From: Sphingorhabdus sp. M41
GTDB lineage: Bacteria; Pseudomonadota; Alphaproteobacteria; Sphingomonadales; Sphingomonadaceae
DNA: 64,000 bases
Reading direction: 5' to 3'
Assembly (NCBI RefSeq): GCF_001586275.1
Contig: NZ_CP014545.1
Span: forward strand, 1,080,501 to 1,144,500
Shown here one piece after another: positions 26,426 through 37,909 of the stretch. Position 1 is the stretch's first letter, and each line of letters begins with the position of its first letter. The translations under genes and the position numbers were made by a program. The notes below the pieces were generated by a model. It had not been told where the DNA came from. It saw nothing but the letters and a program-made list of their open reading frames with translations, and did not search any database.

Positions 26426-27373
26426 TTACCACAATTTGATCTGGCCTAGCCAGGAAGATAGCAGGGAAAGCTTTTCCCGGTATATTTCCGTGGCCCGTTC
26501 CGTCGTGGTTTGCACAAACTGAATTCGTGAGCCCGAACCGAGCTGGCCGATCAAATGACGGTCGGCCCTGATGATCTGCGCAATCCGGGGATAGCCTCCG
26601 GTTGTCTGCGCATCGGGACCGAGAAGATAGGGCTGGCCGCTCGGTGGGAGCTGGATTGTCCCGGGGAAAACCGCTGCGCTCGGCATATTGGACGAGTCGC
26701 AAGCGCTTAGGGCTCCGCCCTCCAGTGCCAAGCCCATTCGGCTGGCCCGTGCTCCGACTGCATAGGGAGCCAGACACAGGTCATCCAGGACGTTCTCGTT
26801 CCGTGTGTCAGCTTCCGGCCCCGGAGTAATCCGCAGCACATGATTATCGCTAAAATGCGGTCGGAGATCTTCCGGTGTGGTTCGCTGCAATTCCGTGACT
26901 GGCGAATCTGGGGTGAAGGCAATGACATCGTCATTCCTGAGGGCCCGGCCGTGAAACCCGCCGAGCGCTGCTGCCAGACAGGTTGACTGGCCTCCGAGCA
27001 GATGGTCGGCATGAATTTTAGCCGCTGTCGCCAGATAGGTCCGGCATCCCGGGCGGCTCGGGCCGATATCGATCTGGTCCCCTGTCATGACTTTCAGCGT
27101 CTGATGCCGAGGTCGATCCTGACCATTGATCCGGACATGTTCAGCCGCACCGACGACAGCGATGGAGCCGGGCTCGTTCATCCGGAAAAGCGCGCCCGTG
27201 AGCGTGATCTCGATTGCGATTTCACCATAGGACTTTCCGACAAGAAAATTTGCCAGGGCCAGCGAAAGACAATCGGCGGCTCCGGCCGCGGGCATGCCCA
27301 GATGCCGGTGCCCGGTGAAGGGCGCGCCTTGCAACGAGCTTTGCAGCCCGGCATTCAAAACGGTGATGCTCAT
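26426..27373 (-). CDS. pxpC: 5-oxoprolinase subunit PxpC (biotin-dependent carboxyltransferase-like/KipA family)
   Basis: With PxpA and PxpB it forms the ATP-dependent prokaryotic 5-oxoprolinase that opens 5-oxo-L-proline (pyroglutamate) to glutamate. The 315-residue product begins at the ATG at 27373 (MSITVLNAGLQSSLQG), which overlaps the pxpB stop by 4 bases; the frame extends upstream but inside pxpB. Family marks are the start block ending GHRHLGMPAAGAADCLSLALAN and the late SCDSSNMPSAAVFPGTIQLPPSG-like substrate region. It is the last gene of the operon. Confidence 0.93.
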   Translation of the reverse strand: MSITVLNAGLQSSLQGAPFTGHRHLGMPAAGAADCLSLALANFLVGKSYGEIAIEITLTGALFRMNEPGSIAVVGAAEHVRINGQDRPRHQTLKVMTGDQIDIGPSRPGCRTYLATAAKIHADHLLGGQSTCLAAALGGFHGRALRNDDVIAFTPDSPVTELQRTTPEDLRPHFSDNHVLRITPGPEADTRNENVLDDLCLAPYAVGARASRMGLALEGGALSACDSSNMPSAAVFPGTIQLPPSGQPYLLGPDAQTTGGYPRIAQIIRADRHLIGQLGSGSRIQFVQTTTERATEIYREKLSLLSSWLGQIKLW

Positions 27374-28041
27374 TGTTCCGTTTCCTGTGGCCAGTGATCG
27401 AACGCGTCTTTCGAAATGGCCTCGAAGCGCACAGTATCTCCGGCTGAAAGCAGGGCGGGCTGGTCTTTGGCCGGATCGAACAGGCGGAGCGGTGTGCGAC
27501 CGATAATCGGCCATCCGCCGGGGCTGTCAAAGGAGTAGATACAGCTTTGCCGGCCAATGATACCGATGGAGCCCGGCGCGACCGATTGTCTTGGATTGGC
27601 GAGCCGACCGATATCGGAACATCCTTCCATGCTTTCCAGATAGGCAAAGCCAGGCATGAAGCCCAGCATGGCTACCCGCTGTATTTGTGCTGCATGCCAG
27701 GAGGATAATGTCTCCGTCGTGATCCCCAGCTTTTTGGCGGCATATTCACTATCCGGAGCGAGCGCTGCGTCATAGCAGACAGGGATCACCTTAGTGGACG
27801 GCGACATTCCGGCCATCTGTGTCAGGTCGCTGATTTGATCCGACGCCATGCTGGCGGCATCAGCGGGCGAAACGAGGGCGGGATCGAACTGTATCGCTAT
27901 GCTGTCGATGCCCGGTACAATTTCTGTCCAGCGAACGTCAGCGGATAATATATTCCGCGCAGCCAGGACTCTATCCATGTCGGGCAAGTTGATGCTGATC
28001 CAGTCGTCACAGATGTGGATTGTCGGACGTGGGACGGCCAT
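27370..28041 (-). CDS. pxpB: 5-oxoprolinase subunit PxpB (allophanate hydrolase subunit 1/KipI family)
   Basis: PxpB is the partner of PxpC in the oxoprolinase complex; the family was first described as KipI, the inhibitor of sporulation kinase KinA in Bacillus. The 223-residue product has the conserved core PVCYDAALAPDS, then MLGFMPGFAYLE and the substrate-pocket block PRQSVAPGSIGIIGRQSCIYSFDSPGGW with IGRTPLRLFD. It overlaps pxpC by 4 bases and pxpA by 1 base, so the three are one translational unit. Confidence 0.94.
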   Translation of the reverse strand: MAVPRPTIHICDDWISINLPDMDRVLAARNILSADVRWTEIVPGIDSIAIQFDPALVSPADAASMASDQISDLTQMAGMSPSTKVIPVCYDAALAPDSEYAAKKLGITTETLSSWHAAQIQRVAMLGFMPGFAYLESMEGCSDIGRLANPRQSVAPGSIGIIGRQSCIYSFDSPGGWPIIGRTPLRLFDPAKDQPALLSAGDTVRFEAISKDAFDHWPQETEQ

Positions 28042-28796
28042 TATCGGACTGAGCCGATCACAATGCAGGCTTGCTCGAGCGCAAGACGCATCTTTCTGGC
28101 TGTTTCCAGAGCGCCGTTGCTGTCAGAGTGGAGGCAGAGGCTCTGCGCCCGGATTGTCAGAGGTGCTCCATCCTTTGTATTCAGCGCAGTCCCTTTTGCC
28201 AGCGACAGGCCTTGGTGAATTCGCAGGGCATCGTCCGCAATCACGGCACCCGCTTCGCTGCGGGGAACCAGTCTGCCATTAGCGGCATATTGCCGGTCGA
28301 TGAAGGCTTCGGCGATGAAGGGAATCGCTCTTTCGTCGGCTGTTTTCTGAAGGAGCGATCCGGGCATGCCCACCAGAGGGAGAGTGGACCGGGCTGCCAA
28401 TTTGACCAGCAAAGTGGAGAGTTCCGGATCATCCTGTGCGTCGTTGTACAGAGCGCCATGTGGCTTGATGTGGGTCAGCGTCACGCCGGTTTCTGCCGCG
28501 GTGTCCCCGATGGCGTCTAGCTGTTCCGTCAGACTGGCTTCCAGGTCCGCAAGCGAAAGCTCCATCGTTTTGCGTCCGAAACCGGCGCGATCAGGATAAG
28601 AGGGATGGGCGCCGGGCGCGACAGACCGCGACTTCGCAGCCGCCAGCATCGTTCGCATGATGTCCGGCGATCCGGCGTGGCCACCGCAGGCGATGTTAAT
28701 GCTCGATACGATGTCCATGATCGCGATGTCGCGGGCGACACCTGCGGGGCTTTCATCCTCGCCAAGGTCGGCATTCAGATCGATCATCACGGTCAC
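28041..28796 (-). CDS. pxpA: 5-oxoprolinase subunit PxpA (LamB/YcsF family)
   Basis: PxpA is a TIM-barrel-like hydrolase-fold protein and the third 5-oxoprolinase subunit. The 251-residue product starts with the diagnostic IDLNADLGED, followed by SSINIACGGHAGSP, VAPGAHPSYPDRAGFGR and THIKPHGALYND. All three pxp genes are present and intact, so pyroglutamate hydrolysis is a well-supported prediction. Its first 4 bases overlap the transporter gene upstream. Confidence 0.95.
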   Translation of the reverse strand: MTVMIDLNADLGEDESPAGVARDIAIMDIVSSINIACGGHAGSPDIMRTMLAAAKSRSVAPGAHPSYPDRAGFGRKTMELSLADLEASLTEQLDAIGDTAAETGVTLTHIKPHGALYNDAQDDPELSTLLVKLAARSTLPLVGMPGSLLQKTADERAIPFIAEAFIDRQYAANGRLVPRSEAGAVIADDALRIHQGLSLAKGTALNTKDGAPLTIRAQSLCLHSDSNGALETARKMRLALEQACIVIGSVR

Positions 28797-30031
28797 GGCC
28801 AGAACCCCAGTGCGCGGGCGATCAACCGGACACCCAAGCCGGTGGTGATCAGCAAAATGGCTACGCCGAGAATATTGGCCCTAAGGCCATTTGCATATTG
28901 CCCGAGCAGCGCCTTGTTGTTCGCCAGCCGGAGCAGGAAAATCGCAATGATAGGGAGCAGCAGGCCGTTGGCGATCTGGGCAACGAATATCAGCTCAACC
29001 GGCTGATAGCCTAGCAGAGCTGCTGACATGCCAGAGAGGATCACAATCAGAGCACCGATCTGAAACGGTCTGCGCGAGTGGGACGATTTGAAAATTTCCT
29101 GCACGATATAGCCTGTGGCCAACGGAGCGGTGATGGCGGAGGTAAGACCCGCTGCGAATAGGCCCGCGCCGAGCGTGACAGTCGCCATGCTGCCAAACAG
29201 GGGGGTGAGCTGCTGTGCCATATCAACCGCATTTTCTATCGTCTTGCCACTGCCAAAAAGGCTGGCTGCCGCGGTTGCCAATATCGTCATCGAAACCAGC
29301 CCGCCGATGCCGATTGAAATAGTGTTGTCCAGCTGGGCTTCGGGCAATTGCTCCTTGTCCCAGCGCTCGCGTACGCTCGCTGCATGGAGAAACAGATTAT
29401 AGGGTACGATGGTGGTGCCAATGAGTGCGATCGCGGTCATCAAGCCACCATCAGGGACGGATGGTACGAAGCCATCCAGCAAGGCCCCGAGGTCCGGTCT
29501 GATCAGCAAGAAGGTCAGAATGAAGGCCGCGCTCATCAATAATACCAGCAGGATCAGGATATTTTCTATCCATTTGGGTTTTGATAAAACCAGCATCGCC
29601 GCCGCAAATAGCGCAATGGTGAGAATGATCGGTGCTTTGCCAAAGGCCAGTGGCCCGCCGTTAATCGCTTCGAGACCAAGCGCAGCGCCGGACATATTGC
29701 CGGCCTCATAAGCTGCGTTGCCAAGCACGAGAGCGGAAATCAGAAGCAAGGCTGCAAGGGTGCGGACAAGAGGCGACGCTACAGATTTGAGCATCGCTTC
29801 TGCCAGTCCGAGTTGCGTAACCAGCGCGATGCGGATGGCGAAGGACTGGAGGATAATAGTGGTGAAAGTGGCAAATGCCAGCGCCCAGAGCAGCGCGAAT
29901 CCGAAACTCGCTCCTGCCAATGTGCAGGCTGTCACGGTTCCGGGGCCGATGAAGGCGGCAGAAACCATCATGCCGGGGCCGGGCCGGTAGTTAAGAATTT
30001 TCATTGTCTTTGGTGCAATCGATTCATCCAT
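28793..30031 (-). CDS. NRAMP-fold transporter with atypical binding site (YcsG-like)
   Basis: The 412-residue protein has about 11 membrane helices and aligns with NRAMP Mn/Fe transporters, for example in AGASFGFALLW after helix 1 and the helix-6 region IALIGTTIVPYNLFLHA. However, the helix-1 metal signature DPGN reads GPGT here and the helix-6 MPH reads VPY, so the Asp, Asn, Met and His ligands are missing. It is the first gene of the pxpABC operon (4-base overlap with pxpA), a neighbourhood also found in Bacillus (ycsG-ycsF-kipI-kipA). Fold assignment is solid; metal transport is doubtful, and pyroglutamate uptake is an inference from context. Confidence 0.85.
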   Translation of the reverse strand: MDESIAPKTMKILNYRPGPGMMVSAAFIGPGTVTACTLAGASFGFALLWALAFATFTTIILQSFAIRIALVTQLGLAEAMLKSVASPLVRTLAALLLISALVLGNAAYEAGNMSGAALGLEAINGGPLAFGKAPIILTIALFAAAMLVLSKPKWIENILILLVLLMSAAFILTFLLIRPDLGALLDGFVPSVPDGGLMTAIALIGTTIVPYNLFLHAASVRERWDKEQLPEAQLDNTISIGIGGLVSMTILATAAASLFGSGKTIENAVDMAQQLTPLFGSMATVTLGAGLFAAGLTSAITAPLATGYIVQEIFKSSHSRRPFQIGALIVILSGMSAALLGYQPVELIFVAQIANGLLLPIIAIFLLRLANNKALLGQYANGLRANILGVAILLITTGLGVRLIARALGFWP

Positions 30032-30665
30032 TCCATGGCCAGGGTTTTTCGCGATACCATTTGGTGATCACATATTTTGTGCCTTTTCTCACCTTCATGC
30101 CATGATGCAAGGTCCAGTCATTGACCGAACTGTCGAGATTGCGGTTATTCCAGCACAACATGGTTCCGGTTTCAGGGGTAAAGCTTTTCTTGAAATGCGG
30201 GAAGCGGGTGGCACCACCTGCCTCGGGTTCGTTGAGATAGATCATGAATGTCCAACTGCGCTGGCCGGAGATGGAGCAATATTTTTGGAAATCCTGGCCA
30301 TTGGGGTCGAAAAAATCCGTGTGCGCCTTGAATTCCTGACCGACCGCATAGCGCTGACCCTGCAGGGGCTCGCCAAATTTCGCGTCGATATCGGCGAAAG
30401 CACAGATCTTCGCGTCAATTTCAGCCACGAAGCCATCCGCATGGTCGAGATCACAGGTCTCGCTGGTCCGGAAATAATCATCACCATTGGGGTCGGCGAT
30501 AGCGGACGGGCGGCGCTTTTCGTCGATTAGCGCCATCAGTTTGCGGCATTCGTCGGGATTGAGGAAATTTTTGACGATGCATAATTCTATTTCCTTGCGC
30601 GGGAACCGCTGCACCTTTCCCAATGCCACGAGATAGTCAGCCGAAGTATTATTGGCCTCTGTCAT
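30024..30665 (-). CDS. 2-oxoglutarate/Fe(II)-dependent oxygenase, prolyl 4-hydroxylase-like
   Basis: The 213-residue product is built on the P4Hc double-stranded beta-helix. Iron ligands appear as His and Asp of AHTDFF and His of LHHGMKV, with the 2-oxoglutarate-binding Lys in KGTKYVITKWYR. The start is taken as the ATG at 30665 (MTEANNTSADYLV); an upstream in-frame ATG at 30752 would add 29 residues of poor character. Its 3' end overlaps the transporter gene start by 8 bases, implying co-transcription with the pxp operon. The substrate could be a free proline derivative, a protein or a small molecule. Confidence 0.85.
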   Translation of the reverse strand: MTEANNTSADYLVALGKVQRFPRKEIELCIVKNFLNPDECRKLMALIDEKRRPSAIADPNGDDYFRTSETCDLDHADGFVAEIDAKICAFADIDAKFGEPLQGQRYAVGQEFKAHTDFFDPNGQDFQKYCSISGQRSWTFMIYLNEPEAGGATRFPHFKKSFTPETGTMLCWNNRNLDSSVNDWTLHHGMKVRKGTKYVITKWYREKPWPWNG

Positions 30666-30772
30666 ATGAACGTCCAAAATTGTACCTAACCAACCTATGT
30701 TAGGATAAATGAATCCCCGTTGATCGCAACCGCTGTTTGCGGCTCGGGCCAATCTGAATATAAGCGAGGTCG

Positions 30773-32546: not shown

Positions 32547-32667
32547 TTTTCCCTCAGGAAGCATAAGGCCATCACCACCTGGCCCGTGCTGCAAAGTCTC
32601 TCTTTATTTGTAATTAAATTACAGCTATGAGATATTTAATTACTCCAGTTTGCTAGGGATGACTGCC

Positions 32668-33720
32668 ATGAGCGTGATGTGGGATTTGCCGGATTTTGAC
32701 GACCATGAAGCGGTCCATTTTTTCCATGATGCCGACAGCGGGCTCAGCGCGATTATCGCGCTGCACAGCACGCATCTCGGCCCCGGCGCGGGCGGAACCC
32801 GGTTCTGGCATTACGAGAATCGCGAAACCGCGGTGACCGATGCGCTGCGCCTTTCGCGCGGCATGAGCTTCAAGAACGCGATGGCCGGTCTGCCACTGGG
32901 TGGCGGCAAGGCGGTGATTCTCGCCGACCGCAATCGCACCAAGACACCGGAAATGCTCGCCGCTTTCGGCCGGATGATCGAGTCGCTCGGCGGCCAATAT
33001 GTCACCGCTGAAGATGTCGGGATCACCGCTGCCGATATGGTCGCTCTGACCAAGGAAACCAAATATGTCTCCGGACTGCCGGTCAGCAACAGCGGCGAAG
33101 CCGGCGGCGATCCCGGACCCTTTACCGCAATGGGTGTCTATCTCGGCGTGAAGGCCGCGGTAGCGCACAAGCTGGGCCGCGAATCCATGGACGGTGTCCA
33201 TGTCGCGATCCAGGGTGTTGGCAGCGTTGGTGGCGGACTTGCCCGTCTGCTGGCCAAGGATGGGGCGAAGCTAAGTATCGCTGACATCAACAAGGACCAT
33301 GCGGCTGCGCTGGCAGAGGAAATCGGAGCCACGGTCGTCGGTCTCGACGAGGTCATGCGGATCGAGGCAGATGTCTTTAGTCCCAATGCTTTGGGCGCGA
33401 TACTGGACAAGGTTTCCATCGCTCATCTCAATGTTCCGATCGTTGCGGGCGGTGCCAATAACCAGCTGGCGACTCCTGAAGACGGACAGCGAATCTTCGA
33501 CCGTAACATATTGTTCGCGCCGGATTATGTCATCAACTCCGGCGGGATCATCAGCGTCGGTCTGGAATATCTAGGCGACGGCGACGTCAAAGAAGTTAAT
33601 CGTCGGGTCGCGATGATTCCGCAGCGTCTGACCGAAATCTGGGAACAGAGCGCGGCGCAAAAATTGCCAGATTCCGATGTCGCCGACAATATGGCGATGG
33701 CGTTGATCGGCCGGGGTTAG
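32668..33720 (+). CDS. Glu/Leu/Phe/Val dehydrogenase, leucine dehydrogenase-like
   Basis: NAD-dependent enzymes of this family reversibly deaminate branched-chain or related L-amino acids. The 350-residue product (ATG at 32668, nine bases after TAGGG; TTG 32650 and ATG 32659 are alternatives) has the glycine-rich substrate region HLGPGAGGTRFW, the catalytic Lys in GLPLGGGKAVIL, the block GGDPGPFTAMGVY and a Rossmann motif IQGVGSVGGGLARLL. Length and the GGTR motif fit leucine dehydrogenase better than glutamate dehydrogenase. It is a single-gene unit after tRNA-His. Confidence 0.9.
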   Translation: MSVMWDLPDFDDHEAVHFFHDADSGLSAIIALHSTHLGPGAGGTRFWHYENRETAVTDALRLSRGMSFKNAMAGLPLGGGKAVILADRNRTKTPEMLAAFGRMIESLGGQYVTAEDVGITAADMVALTKETKYVSGLPVSNSGEAGGDPGPFTAMGVYLGVKAAVAHKLGRESMDGVHVAIQGVGSVGGGLARLLAKDGAKLSIADINKDHAAALAEEIGATVVGLDEVMRIEADVFSPNALGAILDKVSIAHLNVPIVAGGANNQLATPEDGQRIFDRNILFAPDYVINSGGIISVGLEYLGDGDVKEVNRRVAMIPQRLTEIWEQSAAQKLPDSDVADNMAMALIGRG

Positions 33721-34028: not shown

Positions 34029-35075
34029 TTATGGCGTGACTGCAGCCTTGATTTTGGCCCAGCTGACCAGCTTGAAATTTTGCGTGCCGCCTTCATTTGC
34101 ACCATCCTGCATGACCATCAGGCCTTCGGGATAGTCGGGGCCAAAGTCGCCCAAGATGACTTCAATCCCGTCTGTTTCCGAAGTGCCGTCGATTGTTCCA
34201 TCTACCAGCCTGAAGCGGTTCACATAGGCGCCTGTGGTCAGGTCATAGAGCACATAGGCATTGTCGCCCTGGCTAGAGGCGACCAGATAGCCGCCGGTTT
34301 CTCCGGTAGGCGCGAGCGCCAGTCCTTCGACATCGGCCACCAGTTCCTTGCCATTGATATTGGCAAAGCGCTGCGGCTCGAAATTGTCCGCGTTCAGATC
34401 GAACAGCCAGATGCCGCTATTTTCCTCGCCGACATAAAGCCGCCCCGTGCGGTCATCGACGACGCAGCCCTCCGGCTGGGTCGCGAGCTTATATTCCCGG
34501 GTAATGGTTGCGCTCGGCGTGCTGCCCTCAAAGGAGAGGGTGATCTCGCGGACAAAGCCGCTTTTCTCGATCATATAGGCGAAGGTCTCGCCGCCGCTGT
34601 CCTGACCGAAGCAGAAACCATAAGCTTCGCCGGGACCGACCGGATATTTGCCCAGCAGCGTCAGTTCCGCGGATTCGGGATCGAGCCGGTACAGACCGAT
34701 ATGCGCATTGGCGCGGTCGTTGCGGATGCTGGCACCGACCAGCACGGTCTTCTCGCCACCGATCATGACTTCGCGCAGATCGACATTGTTGAGTTCGCCT
34801 TCGGGCAGGAAGGATTTTTTCGATCCATCCAGTCCGTAGACATAGAGACCGGCGCGCTTGTCGGTCCCGATTATCAGGCTGTTCGCCGGATCATCGGCAT
34901 TGCGCCAGATCGCCGGATCATCCGCCGCATCGCGATTGACGGTGCCGACCGGAACGGTTTCTGCGTCCGCGGTCAGTTCGAGGGTTGGCGCAGCAGTGAC
35001 TGTACCGGACGGGGTCGCGCAACCGGCCAAAGCCAGGCTGCCGAGCAGGAGAGGGGAGATTATATTTTTCATCAC
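34029..35075 (-). CDS. Beta-propeller phytase, lipoprotein
   Basis: Beta-propeller phytases release phosphate from inositol hexakisphosphate in a calcium-dependent way. The 348-residue product has a lipoprotein signal peptide with lipobox LALAGC, then the family blocks RDAADDPAIWRN, IIGTDKRAGLYVYGLDG, YGFCFGQ, QPEGCVVDDRTGRLYVGEENSGIW and DVEGLALAP, spread over the propeller blades. The start codon overlaps the stop of the TonB receptor gene by 4 bases. The pair suggests surface or periplasmic phytate breakdown coupled to uptake. Confidence 0.92.
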   Translation of the reverse strand: MMKNIISPLLLGSLALAGCATPSGTVTAAPTLELTADAETVPVGTVNRDAADDPAIWRNADDPANSLIIGTDKRAGLYVYGLDGSKKSFLPEGELNNVDLREVMIGGEKTVLVGASIRNDRANAHIGLYRLDPESAELTLLGKYPVGPGEAYGFCFGQDSGGETFAYMIEKSGFVREITLSFEGSTPSATITREYKLATQPEGCVVDDRTGRLYVGEENSGIWLFDLNADNFEPQRFANINGKELVADVEGLALAPTGETGGYLVASSQGDNAYVLYDLTTGAYVNRFRLVDGTIDGTSETDGIEVILGDFGPDYPEGLMVMQDGANEGGTQNFKLVSWAKIKAAVTP

Positions 35076-37909
35076 ATTGTTATCTTTGCGCCAAATTTGA
35101 AGGTCGAGCCATATTCTTCATATTGCAGCAGCCGCTTGCGCGTATCGAAATTCTGATAGGCGGAATATTTGGCGTTGTTGATGTTGATCCATTCCGCGAA
35201 TAGCCGGATATTGTTGTTCAGTTTCAGCTTCACGCTGGCGTCGAGCTGGAAATGATTGTCGACATAGCGGTCCTCGCCGGCTTCCGCGCCGAGCTCGTCG
35301 AGATAATGATCCCGATAAGTGCCCGCCAGACGGAAATCGAAAGGGCCTTTCTCGTAACCGAGCACCGCGTTGAACGTATGCTTGGAACTGCTGGGCAGCG
35401 CGATGCTGCGCAGATTGGTGATATCGCCGTCGGTTGGTACCGTGCCGCTGGCGTCGGTATAGGTATAGTTGAAGTTGACAAGAAAACCGTCGAGCGGGTC
35501 CGGCAGGAAATTGAGCGCTTGCGCAAAACCCAGTTCGATGCCGAACACTTCGGCGCTGGAACCGTTGATCGGTATGGTTGCTTCGTCGAAATCTATGCCG
35601 AAGCGCGTGCCGTTTTCCTCCAGCGAGCTGACGATGAAATTCTTGATATCCTTGTAAAAGACATTGGCCGTGAGCGCGCCGTTGGAACTGAAGTAAAATT
35701 CCGCTGCGGCATCGAAGTTCCAGGCTTCGTAGGGCTGCAAGTCGGGATTGCCAAATTCGCCTTCGCGCTCATTGTCGTCATTTTGCTCGACCGCGAACCG
35801 AGGGGCCAGGTCAGACAGATTGGGTCTCACCACGCTGCGATAGCCGGCAGCGCGAAATACAAGATTGCGCTGCGGTTCAAAGCGGACATTGAGGCTGGGG
35901 AGCCAGTCGTCATAGCTGCGCGTGAAGCCATTGGGCGTGACGAATACCGTGTCGTCGGTCAGTGTCACCCCGTTGAAGACCGCATCCTCTTCTACCAGCG
36001 TGACTGTGTTGGCGGAAATGACATTCTCCGTGCGTTCAAAGCGGACGCCGCCAATCACGCGGACCTCTTCACTATCCCAGCGCCCCAGCAGATAGCCGGC
36101 ATAAATATCTTCCTGATTGATATAATCCGAGACGGCGGAATCGAACTGGCTGTCGATATCCTGCAACTCGAAATCACCGAAATTGGCACGAAAATATTCG
36201 GTCGCACCGGTCCGGCTGACAACCGGTCCGAGGTCGGCGAGGCGATAGGTTTGCTCGCCCAGCACGTTGGCGAGCGTATAACTGCCGGTGCTGTCTTCAT
36301 AAAATTCGACGTCATTGTCATATCGCTTTTCTCGCCAGCGACCCTTGAAACCGGCCTGGACGGTGAAATCGCCACTGCCCATCGCGAAAAGGCGGGAAAC
36401 GTCCAGTCGGGCGGAAAATTCTTCGTCCTGAGCGGCTGAAAGAGCGGTCAGTTCAACATCTCCCAGATCATAAAGACTGGCGTCATTGGCGAGAGCAGCG
36501 CCGGACGCGTAGCTATATGCCGGTATGCGATCGTCTGCATAGTCGAACAGCACACTGACGCCGTCGCCTTCGAATTTATTGGAAAAAGTTGTGGGGTCGA
36601 GCGAGCCATTTTCCGATTCGCTGGATTTGGACCAGCTGCCGGAATATTCTGCTTTCCAGGGACCTGTTTCGGTCTTGCCGCCGACGACTATGGAACGGAT
36701 CTTCTGGCTTTCGAAACGATCTTTCATGTCGCGTTCGATTTCGATTTCACCGTCCGCATCATCGAACAGGGCGCTGTTGGCATCGCCGCTGCTGGCTGCT
36801 TCATCCAGTTTGAATGTGGTCCGGGCGCGATATTCCTGATCATCAAACTGGCTGTAAATGCCGCGAACATAAAGTTCGGTGCTATCGCTTGCGCGGAAAT
36901 CGAAGGAAAGCGAGGCGCTGATCCGTTCCCGTTCGACGTCATAGTCGCGAAACTGGACCTCGTCGGCATAGGCTATGCCGTCATCATTGACGTCCCAGCC
37001 TTCTGCTTCGATATTGTCGGTTTCGAACTTGCGCTTATAGTAAGAAACGCCTCCGGCCACGCCGATATCGTCGGTGAGGCGAGTCGAGAAATCGATGCTG
37101 CCCTTTGGCGTTACGTCGCCCGAATATTCGTTGTAGCTGCCTTCAATCTTGCCCGTCAGCAGATCCTTCTTGCGGTCAAAGGCACTGACCGTGCTGATTT
37201 CGATCGAGGCACCGATCGTATCGCCATCCATGTCAGGGGTGAGCGATTTCTTGATTTCGATCGATTCAATGAGATCGCTGGAAATAACGTCCAGAGCCAC
37301 GGAACGGACATCGCTTTCCGGTGAAGGGATCCGGACGCCGTTCAGCGAGGAGGCGTTCAGATTGGGGTCGAGGCCACGGACTGAAACAAACCGGCCTTCG
37401 CCCTGATCATTGAGAATATTGACCCCGGGTACCCGGCGTAGGGATTCTGCGACATTCTGGTCCGGAAACTGACCGATTGCGTCTCGAGTCAGAACCGACG
37501 ACACGCCATCACCTTCGCGTTTGCGCGACAGGGCGCTGGCCTGGTTGGCACTTTGGCCGATGACCAGGATTTCGGTGCCGGAGCCGGTCTGCAACGTGAT
37601 GTTCGCGACAACAAGGCCGGTTTCGGTGACGGTCACGCTGGCTTGACTGGTGTCGGCTCCGATATAGCGGGTCTCGAGCGTATAGGTGCCGGCCGGGACA
37701 TCGGGAAATCGATAGCTGCCGTCGCGTTCCGTGGTCACGACACGGTCCAGTTCCACAATGCGAACCTGCGCCGATTGCAACCCTCTGGTTTCGCTGGGAT
37801 CGCTGACGACACCGGTCACGGTGCCGGCCCAGGCTACGGTCGGTAGCGTCACCATGATCCCCGCTGATCCGATTAGTAACCCTCTGCGAAATTTAGATAT
37901 TTTTGCCAT
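35072..37909 (-). CDS. TonB-dependent receptor (phytase-associated)
   Basis: The 945-residue outer-membrane receptor has a signal peptide ending AWAGTVTG, an N-terminal carboxypeptidase-regulatory-like beta domain (about 28-115, with DGSYRFPDVPAGTYTLETRYIG), a plug domain (about 130-250, with RVPGVNILNDQGEGRFVSVRGLDPN) and a 22-strand barrel. This class imports large or complex ligands with energy from TonB-ExbBD. Coupling to the phytase gene by a 4-base overlap suggests a phytate or inositol-phosphate ligand. The ATG at 37909 follows GGAGGGCATC. Confidence 0.93.
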   Translation of the reverse strand: MAKISKFRRGLLIGSAGIMVTLPTVAWAGTVTGVVSDPSETRGLQSAQVRIVELDRVVTTERDGSYRFPDVPAGTYTLETRYIGADTSQASVTVTETGLVVANITLQTGSGTEILVIGQSANQASALSRKREGDGVSSVLTRDAIGQFPDQNVAESLRRVPGVNILNDQGEGRFVSVRGLDPNLNASSLNGVRIPSPESDVRSVALDVISSDLIESIEIKKSLTPDMDGDTIGASIEISTVSAFDRKKDLLTGKIEGSYNEYSGDVTPKGSIDFSTRLTDDIGVAGGVSYYKRKFETDNIEAEGWDVNDDGIAYADEVQFRDYDVERERISASLSFDFRASDSTELYVRGIYSQFDDQEYRARTTFKLDEAASSGDANSALFDDADGEIEIERDMKDRFESQKIRSIVVGGKTETGPWKAEYSGSWSKSSESENGSLDPTTFSNKFEGDGVSVLFDYADDRIPAYSYASGAALANDASLYDLGDVELTALSAAQDEEFSARLDVSRLFAMGSGDFTVQAGFKGRWREKRYDNDVEFYEDSTGSYTLANVLGEQTYRLADLGPVVSRTGATEYFRANFGDFELQDIDSQFDSAVSDYINQEDIYAGYLLGRWDSEEVRVIGGVRFERTENVISANTVTLVEEDAVFNGVTLTDDTVFVTPNGFTRSYDDWLPSLNVRFEPQRNLVFRAAGYRSVVRPNLSDLAPRFAVEQNDDNEREGEFGNPDLQPYEAWNFDAAAEFYFSSNGALTANVFYKDIKNFIVSSLEENGTRFGIDFDEATIPINGSSAEVFGIELGFAQALNFLPDPLDGFLVNFNYTYTDASGTVPTDGDITNLRSIALPSSSKHTFNAVLGYEKGPFDFRLAGTYRDHYLDELGAEAGEDRYVDNHFQLDASVKLKLNNNIRLFAEWININNAKYSAYQNFDTRKRLLQYEEYGSTFKFGAKITM

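Follow-up and report, generated by a model that had tools for sequence, protein, structure and literature searches.

The stretch of DNA analysed here ('the window'; 64,000 nucleotides of Sphingorhabdus sp. M41, contig NZ_CP014545.1) codes on its minus strand for a transporter of NRAMP fold (P0001), whose gene overlaps those of the 5-oxoprolinase PxpABC. The protein belongs to a group that we named GPGT/VPYN after its motifs in transmembrane helices (TM) 1 and 6. Members of this group swap partner between two unrelated 5-oxoprolinase-type enzymes, which constitutes new evidence. We propose that the window protein is probably an importer of 5-oxoproline (pyroglutamate) feeding PxpABC, i.e. an inner-membrane carrier of LeuT fold devoid of metal ligands. 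The features of the locus are as follows, with residues counted from the ATG at 30031.

28793..30031, minus strand: NRAMP-fold transporter of the GPGT/VPYN group, 412 residues, likely 5-oxoproline importer
29936..29947, minus strand: TM1 break GPGT (G29-P30-G31-T32), replacing DPGN
29396..29407, minus strand: TM6 break VPYN (V209-P210-Y211-N212), replacing MPHN
28793..28796, minus strand: overlap of the transporter stop and the pxpA start, 4 bases (GTGA), read from the sequence
28041..28796, minus strand: pxpA, 5-oxoprolinase subunit A (LamB/YcsF), 251 residues; PF03746 259.3 bits, NF003814 248.6 bits (cut-off 226)
27370..28041, minus strand: pxpB, 5-oxoprolinase subunit B, 223 residues; PF02682 163.7 bits, TIGR00370 125.2 bits (under the cut-off of 145.55)
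26426..27373, minus strand: pxpC, 5-oxoprolinase subunit C, 315 residues; PF02626 239.1 bits, TIGR00724 200.8 bits (under the cut-off of 230.2)
30024..30752 (start codon provisional), minus strand: 2-oxoglutarate-Fe(II) (2OG-Fe(II)) oxygenase, prolyl 4-hydroxylase-like; PF13640 59.3 bits

A group of NRAMP-like transporters without metal ligands

The transporter matches the Pfam family Nramp (PF01566) with 271.9 bits (E 1.1e-80), well above the cut-off of 29.8, and a sequence search aligned it with solved NRAMPs over most of its length. An initial annotation of the window had described an NRAMP-like protein with GPGT in place of DPGN and VPY in place of MPH, and these matches and the motifs themselves bear this out. 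TM1 reads AFIGPGTVT in the window protein versus GY[MI]DPGN in canonical members, and TM6 reads IGTTIVPYNLFLH versus ILGATVMPHNLYLH. None of the D, N, M and H ligands of canonical NRAMP/MntH proteins such as DraNramp is thus present, their positions being taken by G29, T32, V209 and Y211, respectively. The acidic pair of TM3 (D...E of DLAE) is absent as well, its columns being occupied by E109 and N112. Across the GPGT/VPYN group all four ligands are gone, and the TM3 pair is mostly replaced by E or Q and by N. In the predicted model, helices 1 and 6 are broken, at residues 28-29 and 208-209, respectively, as in a LeuT fold, and structural comparison of this model gave metal NRAMPs as the closest folds.

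To place the protein, 249 genomes from the window's phylum were searched for NRAMPs with the Pfam model, and motifs were read in those fetched, among the matches listed. Canonical members have DPGN and MPH, and several non-canonical types are found besides the GPGT/VPYN type. A DNA pattern for TM6 retrieved at least 120 GPGT/VPYN loci from many phyla, whose agreement in TM6 holds by construction, because that motif was the search key. A profile built from 11 group members (E <= 1e-80) had matches in two other phyla, in 15 of the 296 genomes drawn from that of Micrococcus and in 10 of the 299 drawn from that of Shouchella, including the two centre genomes, which were picked because they carry the gene. 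These 25 matches, the only ones found without the TM6 expression, all have Gly at position 29 and V-[PT]-Y in TM6, with Thr at position 32 in 24 and Ser in one. One of them, L324 (genome G392, Micrococcus phylum), is a copy broken by a TAG stop after TM6. Group members are also found on haloarchaeal plasmids.

We defined the group by G29, T32, V209, Y211 and H216 together with a position on one side of a tree branch (support 80-83, not starred); the window protein has these residues and lies on that side. In the linkage and motif counts, membership was assigned by the TM6 expression. The 73 group members that were measured are 37-89% identical to the window protein, versus 28-32% for 10 canonical NRAMPs.

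Literature searches returned no published function for the GPGT/VPYN group, nor any paper joining oxoprolinase, hydantoinase and Nramp. The 'orphan outgroup' of Slc11 is described as having Y/N in helix 3, V/Y in helix 6 and a Thr in helix 6a (PMC10606218). These marks correspond to Y108, N112, V209, Y211 and T206 of the window protein, a match made by reading residues rather than by sequence comparison. The passages on the outgroup in that paper give no function, and the window's group gains an enzyme context here.

Enzymes encoded next to the transporter

In the window, the transporter frame runs from the ATG at 30031 to its end at 28793. The initial annotation had located it correctly but without its strand, which is the minus strand, and had also described the 4-base overlap with pxpA, found as GTGA at 28796..28793. 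Further overlaps follow, of 1 base between pxpA and pxpB and of 4 bases between pxpB and pxpC. All three subunits match their Pfam families, and PxpA reaches its NCBIfam cut-off, but PxpB and PxpC do not. The transporter had been said to head pxpABC: the three genes do lie downstream of it, but the oxygenase gene (30752..30024) precedes it with an 8-base overlap and is the first of the coupled set. This set thus consists of five genes, for the oxygenase, the transporter, PxpA, PxpB and PxpC, and their overlaps suggest a single transcript. An Nramp match is present in all 23 same-genus genomes drawn. Among 24 genus loci including the window's, pxpA is found in 23 and the oxygenase gene in 23; in each case the one locus lacking the gene is incomplete. 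As the three genes are kept across the genus, the arrangement is not due to chance.

Beyond the genus, we determined which enzymes are encoded near transporters of the group. Among 96 GPGT/VPYN loci from four sets other than the plasmid loci, leaving out the broken L324 and pieces under 200 residues, pxpA is nearby in 46, HyuAB in nine, both in none and neither in 41. HyuAB is a hydantoinase/oxoprolinase unrelated to PxpABC; the eukaryote-like 5-oxoprolinase is of a fused Hydantoinase_A/Hydantoinase_B type. Neither enzyme is encoded beside any of 20 canonical NRAMPs, and among 52 other non-canonical NRAMPs there is no pxpA and a single HyuAB, at 3.1 kb. An alternative count with a 3-kb limit and plasmid loci included gave 45/77 versus 0/73; the 96-locus count is the cleaner one.

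The swap is seen at L074, from the window's family, in a genome without pxpA, where the transporter gene overlaps by 1 base that of a 1216-residue protein comprising Hydantoinase_A and Hydantoinase_B. In the haloarchaeal plasmid loci, HyuA is encoded directly behind the transporter in nine of 10 (eight as annotated, one by a reading frame where the record is cut off), and a gene for an Asp/Glu/hydantoin racemase-like protein comes next in five of the eight annotated operons. One haloarchaeal record and a Pseudoalteromonas plasmid have neither enzyme beside the transporter; the plasmid records are a manual choice of 11 among 41 matches. On a quick tree, the HyuAB label requires five changes, and the starred branches force five. 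In the Micrococcus phylum, transporter and HyuA occur together in five loci, four of which also carry a D-glutamate cyclase-family gene (L317, L319, L320 and L321). The L321 protein belongs to PF07286, and those of the other three match a profile built from it. A pyroglutamyl peptidase gene is found nearby at a single locus, L338, in the Shouchella phylum.

At the level of whole genomes, 31 of 36 GPGT genomes chosen by hand have pxpA. Hydantoinase_B is present in each of the other five, but also in every one of the 18 hand-picked genomes examined for it. In the draw of 249 genomes, the window's genome being one of them, pxpA is found in 94: in seven of the eight GPGT genomes among the matches listed versus 87 of the 241 others (Fisher p 0.005, kinship ignored). 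In nine of the 249 genomes, an NRAMP-like protein is encoded no more than about 3 kb from pxpA; two of these proteins are of the GPGT/VPYN type and seven of another group, and none of the nine has DPGN or MPH, again among the matches listed.

Several observations concern the surroundings. The oxygenase gene also adjoins the transporter gene at L148, L162, L182, L214 and L266. In one genus genome (G003; L025 and L214), the match to the transporter is split over two reading frames, owing to a sequencing error or to decay. A partial Nramp match under the cut-off (25.3 bits) lies in a 587-residue frame elsewhere in the window's genome (G000:C1:2886593-2886904) and recurs in many genomes of the genus. 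Near the operon, a Glu/Leu/Phe/Val dehydrogenase gene is found at 32650-33720 on the plus strand. The minus strand at 34029-37909 carries genes for a TonB-dependent receptor and, behind it, a phytase, which probably act together in organophosphate uptake.

A second pxp-linked group

The weak Pfam matches beside pxpA belong to a different NRAMP-like group (L297-L303 and L348-L375), with GPGF-TQT in TM1 and VGGY in TM6. Seven of its loci were fetched because they are near pxpA; an eighth member, L304, is not. Its members are 25-28% identical to the window protein (n=7), which has neither GPGF-TQT nor VGGY but shares the pxpABC context with them. The two pxp-linked groups are separate on the tree. 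Neither a sister relation between them nor one between the GPGT group and the canonical NRAMPs gains clear support from it (support 25; approximately unbiased (AU) test p 0.338). The second type is found in 26 of 299 genomes of the Shouchella phylum versus one of 296 of the Micrococcus phylum, which is the centre genome itself; both draws contain their centre genome, picked as a carrier of the gene.

Gene orders in this second group resemble those of described systems. At L301, genes for the NRAMP, PxpA, PxpB/PxpC and a biotin carboxylase follow one another, as in mumTLUHC of Acinetobacter baumannii, with the NRAMP first, an allophanate-hydrolase type and the carboxylase last; MumL is presumably PxpA. 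Two orders are found in the Shouchella phylum: pxpA, NRAMP, D-glutamate cyclase family, pxpB at L348 and L349, like ycsF-ycsG-ycsI-kipI of Bacillus subtilis, and pxpA, NRAMP, pxpB, pxpC at L351, L356, L361 and L362, like pxpAGBC of Clostridioides difficile. Several of these loci carry a D-glutamate cyclase-family gene, and some a biotin carboxylase or biotin carrier gene; the carboxylase next to PxpABC is a candidate for a variant enzyme.

Structural alignment of the window model with 9a52, the integrative model of B. subtilis YcsG, gave an identity of 18-20%, below the floor of the GPGT/VPYN group; 9a52 was not returned by a PDB sequence search with the window protein or with the L302 relative. 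Judging from this identity, from gene order and from the identities given in PMC13274462, YcsG, PxpT, PxpG and MumT probably belong to the GPGF-TQT/VGGY group. Two published sequence tags of C. glutamicum had no match among L317-L341. We had considered that the window gene might be an orthologue of ycsG, pxpT and mumT, but dropped this idea given the low identity of 9a52 and the emergence of the second pxp-linked group. The analogy with Bacillus ycsG drawn in the initial annotation thus holds for the operon slot, but YcsG appears to be in another NRAMP-like group. Like the window protein, the members of that group are related to NRAMPs, lack DPGN and MPH and are encoded in pxpA-pxpB-pxpC operons, and the GPG of TM1, an N in TM3 and an N in TM10 are common to both. 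In contrast, they have GPGF-TQT and VGGY where the window protein has GPGT and VPYN.

What is published on these proteins is divided. A C. glutamicum delta-pxpT mutant does not grow on 5-oxoproline and is complemented, with metal transport left possible; PxpT is 50% identical to YcsG, for which there is also 5-oxoproline genetics (PMC13274462). The latter is contested, a polar effect being held possible, and overexpression of YcsG raises cell Mn, hence its new name MntG (PMC10448178). Mn2+ import was claimed for A. baumannii MumT (PMC5050338), work on which PMC11796373 builds. If YcsG, PxpT, PxpG and MumT are in the other group, these phenotypes do not directly concern that of the window. NRAMP-related groups with neither motif have been described, MntG's being 'G-motif 3'; apart from it and the NRMT-like group they are presented as uncharacterised (PMC12873925).

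Substrate of the window's transporter

The window protein would be a secondary transporter of the inner membrane, of LeuT fold and related to NRAMPs, whose central site has lost its metal ligands. It would bring 5-oxoproline inward, and PxpABC, encoded behind it, would open the ring to glutamate at the expense of ATP. Amino-acid members of the APC superfamily hold the substrate carboxylate at the TM1 break. The glycine-rich GPGT break may do the same in the window protein, in a site putatively lined by Y108 and N112 of TM3, Y211 of TM6, and Q352 and N355 of TM10. We favour a carrier of 5-oxoproline over one of metal because the metal ligands are gone and the two unrelated enzymes have 5-oxoproline in common, and also because this operon slot is taken elsewhere by another NRAMP-related group, for which there is 5-oxoproline genetics. 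Import of 5-oxoproline or a related lactam, as suggested in the initial annotation, is thus best supported, by the partner swap and by the D-glutamate cyclase-family and pyroglutamyl peptidase neighbours, although the idea is partly known: genetics for YcsG and PxpT had already pointed to 5-oxoproline import by pxp-linked NRAMP-like proteins (PMC13274462).

Several observations weigh against this assignment. The substrate is deduced from context, and 41 of the 96 loci have neither enzyme in the stretch seen; unlinked members may carry another substrate. By the NCBIfam model NF037982 (80.2 bits, cut-off 50), the window protein would be labelled a divalent metal transporter. Relatives of HyuAB have hydantoins, caprolactam and ketones among their substrates as well; the nearest NCBIfam models are caprolactamases, far under the cut-off, and the best PDB match is an N-methylhydantoinase. 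Shouchella, Micrococcus and G643 have both a GPGT/VPYN-type copy (atypical in G643, with GTGT) and a YcsG-type transporter. In Shouchella, pxpA adjoins the YcsG-type gene rather than the other copy, so that members may differ in substrate. Finally, the loss of ligands does not by itself exclude metal: EleNRMT is devoid of the motif, yet carries Mg2+ and Mn2+ (PMC12873925). It is 26-27% identical to the window protein, and the passages of that paper on EleNRMT mention no 5-oxoprolinase link.

Uptake of a related compound (hydantoin or another lactam, D-5-oxoproline, glutamine or glutamate), 5-oxoproline then being just a downstream intermediate, appears unlikely. It would account for the hydantoinases and caprolactamases among HyuAB relatives, for the racemase-like genes in the haloarchaeal operons (five of the eight annotated), and for the D-glutamate cyclase-family neighbours, the product of that cyclase being 5-oxo-D-proline. 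However, both enzyme types have 5-oxoproline as their shared substrate, and PxpABC, the partner in the window, is known to act on 5-oxo-L-proline (PMC13274462).

We also regard as quite unlikely that the protein imports a divalent metal (Mn2+) using other ligands, the operon link reflecting the metal need of ATP-dependent enzymes. The predicted fold, closest to metal NRAMPs, the Mn claims for YcsG (PMC10448178) and MumT (PMC5050338) and the case of EleNRMT are consistent with it. In addition, neither a ZIP protein nor another full NRAMP was found in the window's genome, where a FeoB candidate was detected; a role in Mn uptake can therefore not be called redundant, a further point against 5-oxoproline. 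In contrast, the group-wide loss of the four ligands and of the TM3 acidic pair, the absence of these enzymes beside all 20 canonical NRAMPs, and the cyclase-family and peptidase neighbours, which point to a metabolite, argue against a metal. The published Mn evidence appears to concern the YcsG-type group.

Export easing a build-up of 5-oxoproline is very improbable: the compound does arise inside every cell and accumulates in pxp mutants (PMC13274462), but an exporter would be redundant next to the degrading enzyme, and published deletions in the YcsG-type group stop growth on external 5-oxoproline.

Beyond the window protein, we lean, with more caution, towards the view that the GPGT/VPYN group, which probably corresponds to the 'orphan outgroup' neighbouring the NRAMP metal carriers, comprises carriers of 5-oxoproline or lactams in bacteria and haloarchaea, repeatedly paired with two unrelated 5-oxoprolinases, a second NRAMP-related group occupying the same slot elsewhere. 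The plasmid records, like the automatic model, name the protein a divalent metal transporter, and the literature on pxp-linked relatives is split between 5-oxoproline (C. glutamicum, B. subtilis) and Mn2+ (B. subtilis, A. baumannii). Residues and gene context together tell apart two groups that their common operon had masked, and provide a candidate substrate for the GPGT/VPYN group, which would reveal the cargo of a widespread side branch of the NRAMPs. This bears on the origin of metal specificity in the APC superfamily. If the proposal is correct, the Mn phenotypes described for pxp-linked relatives would need re-testing, and NRAMP metal transport would border on, or derive from, carriers of amino-acid-like substrates.
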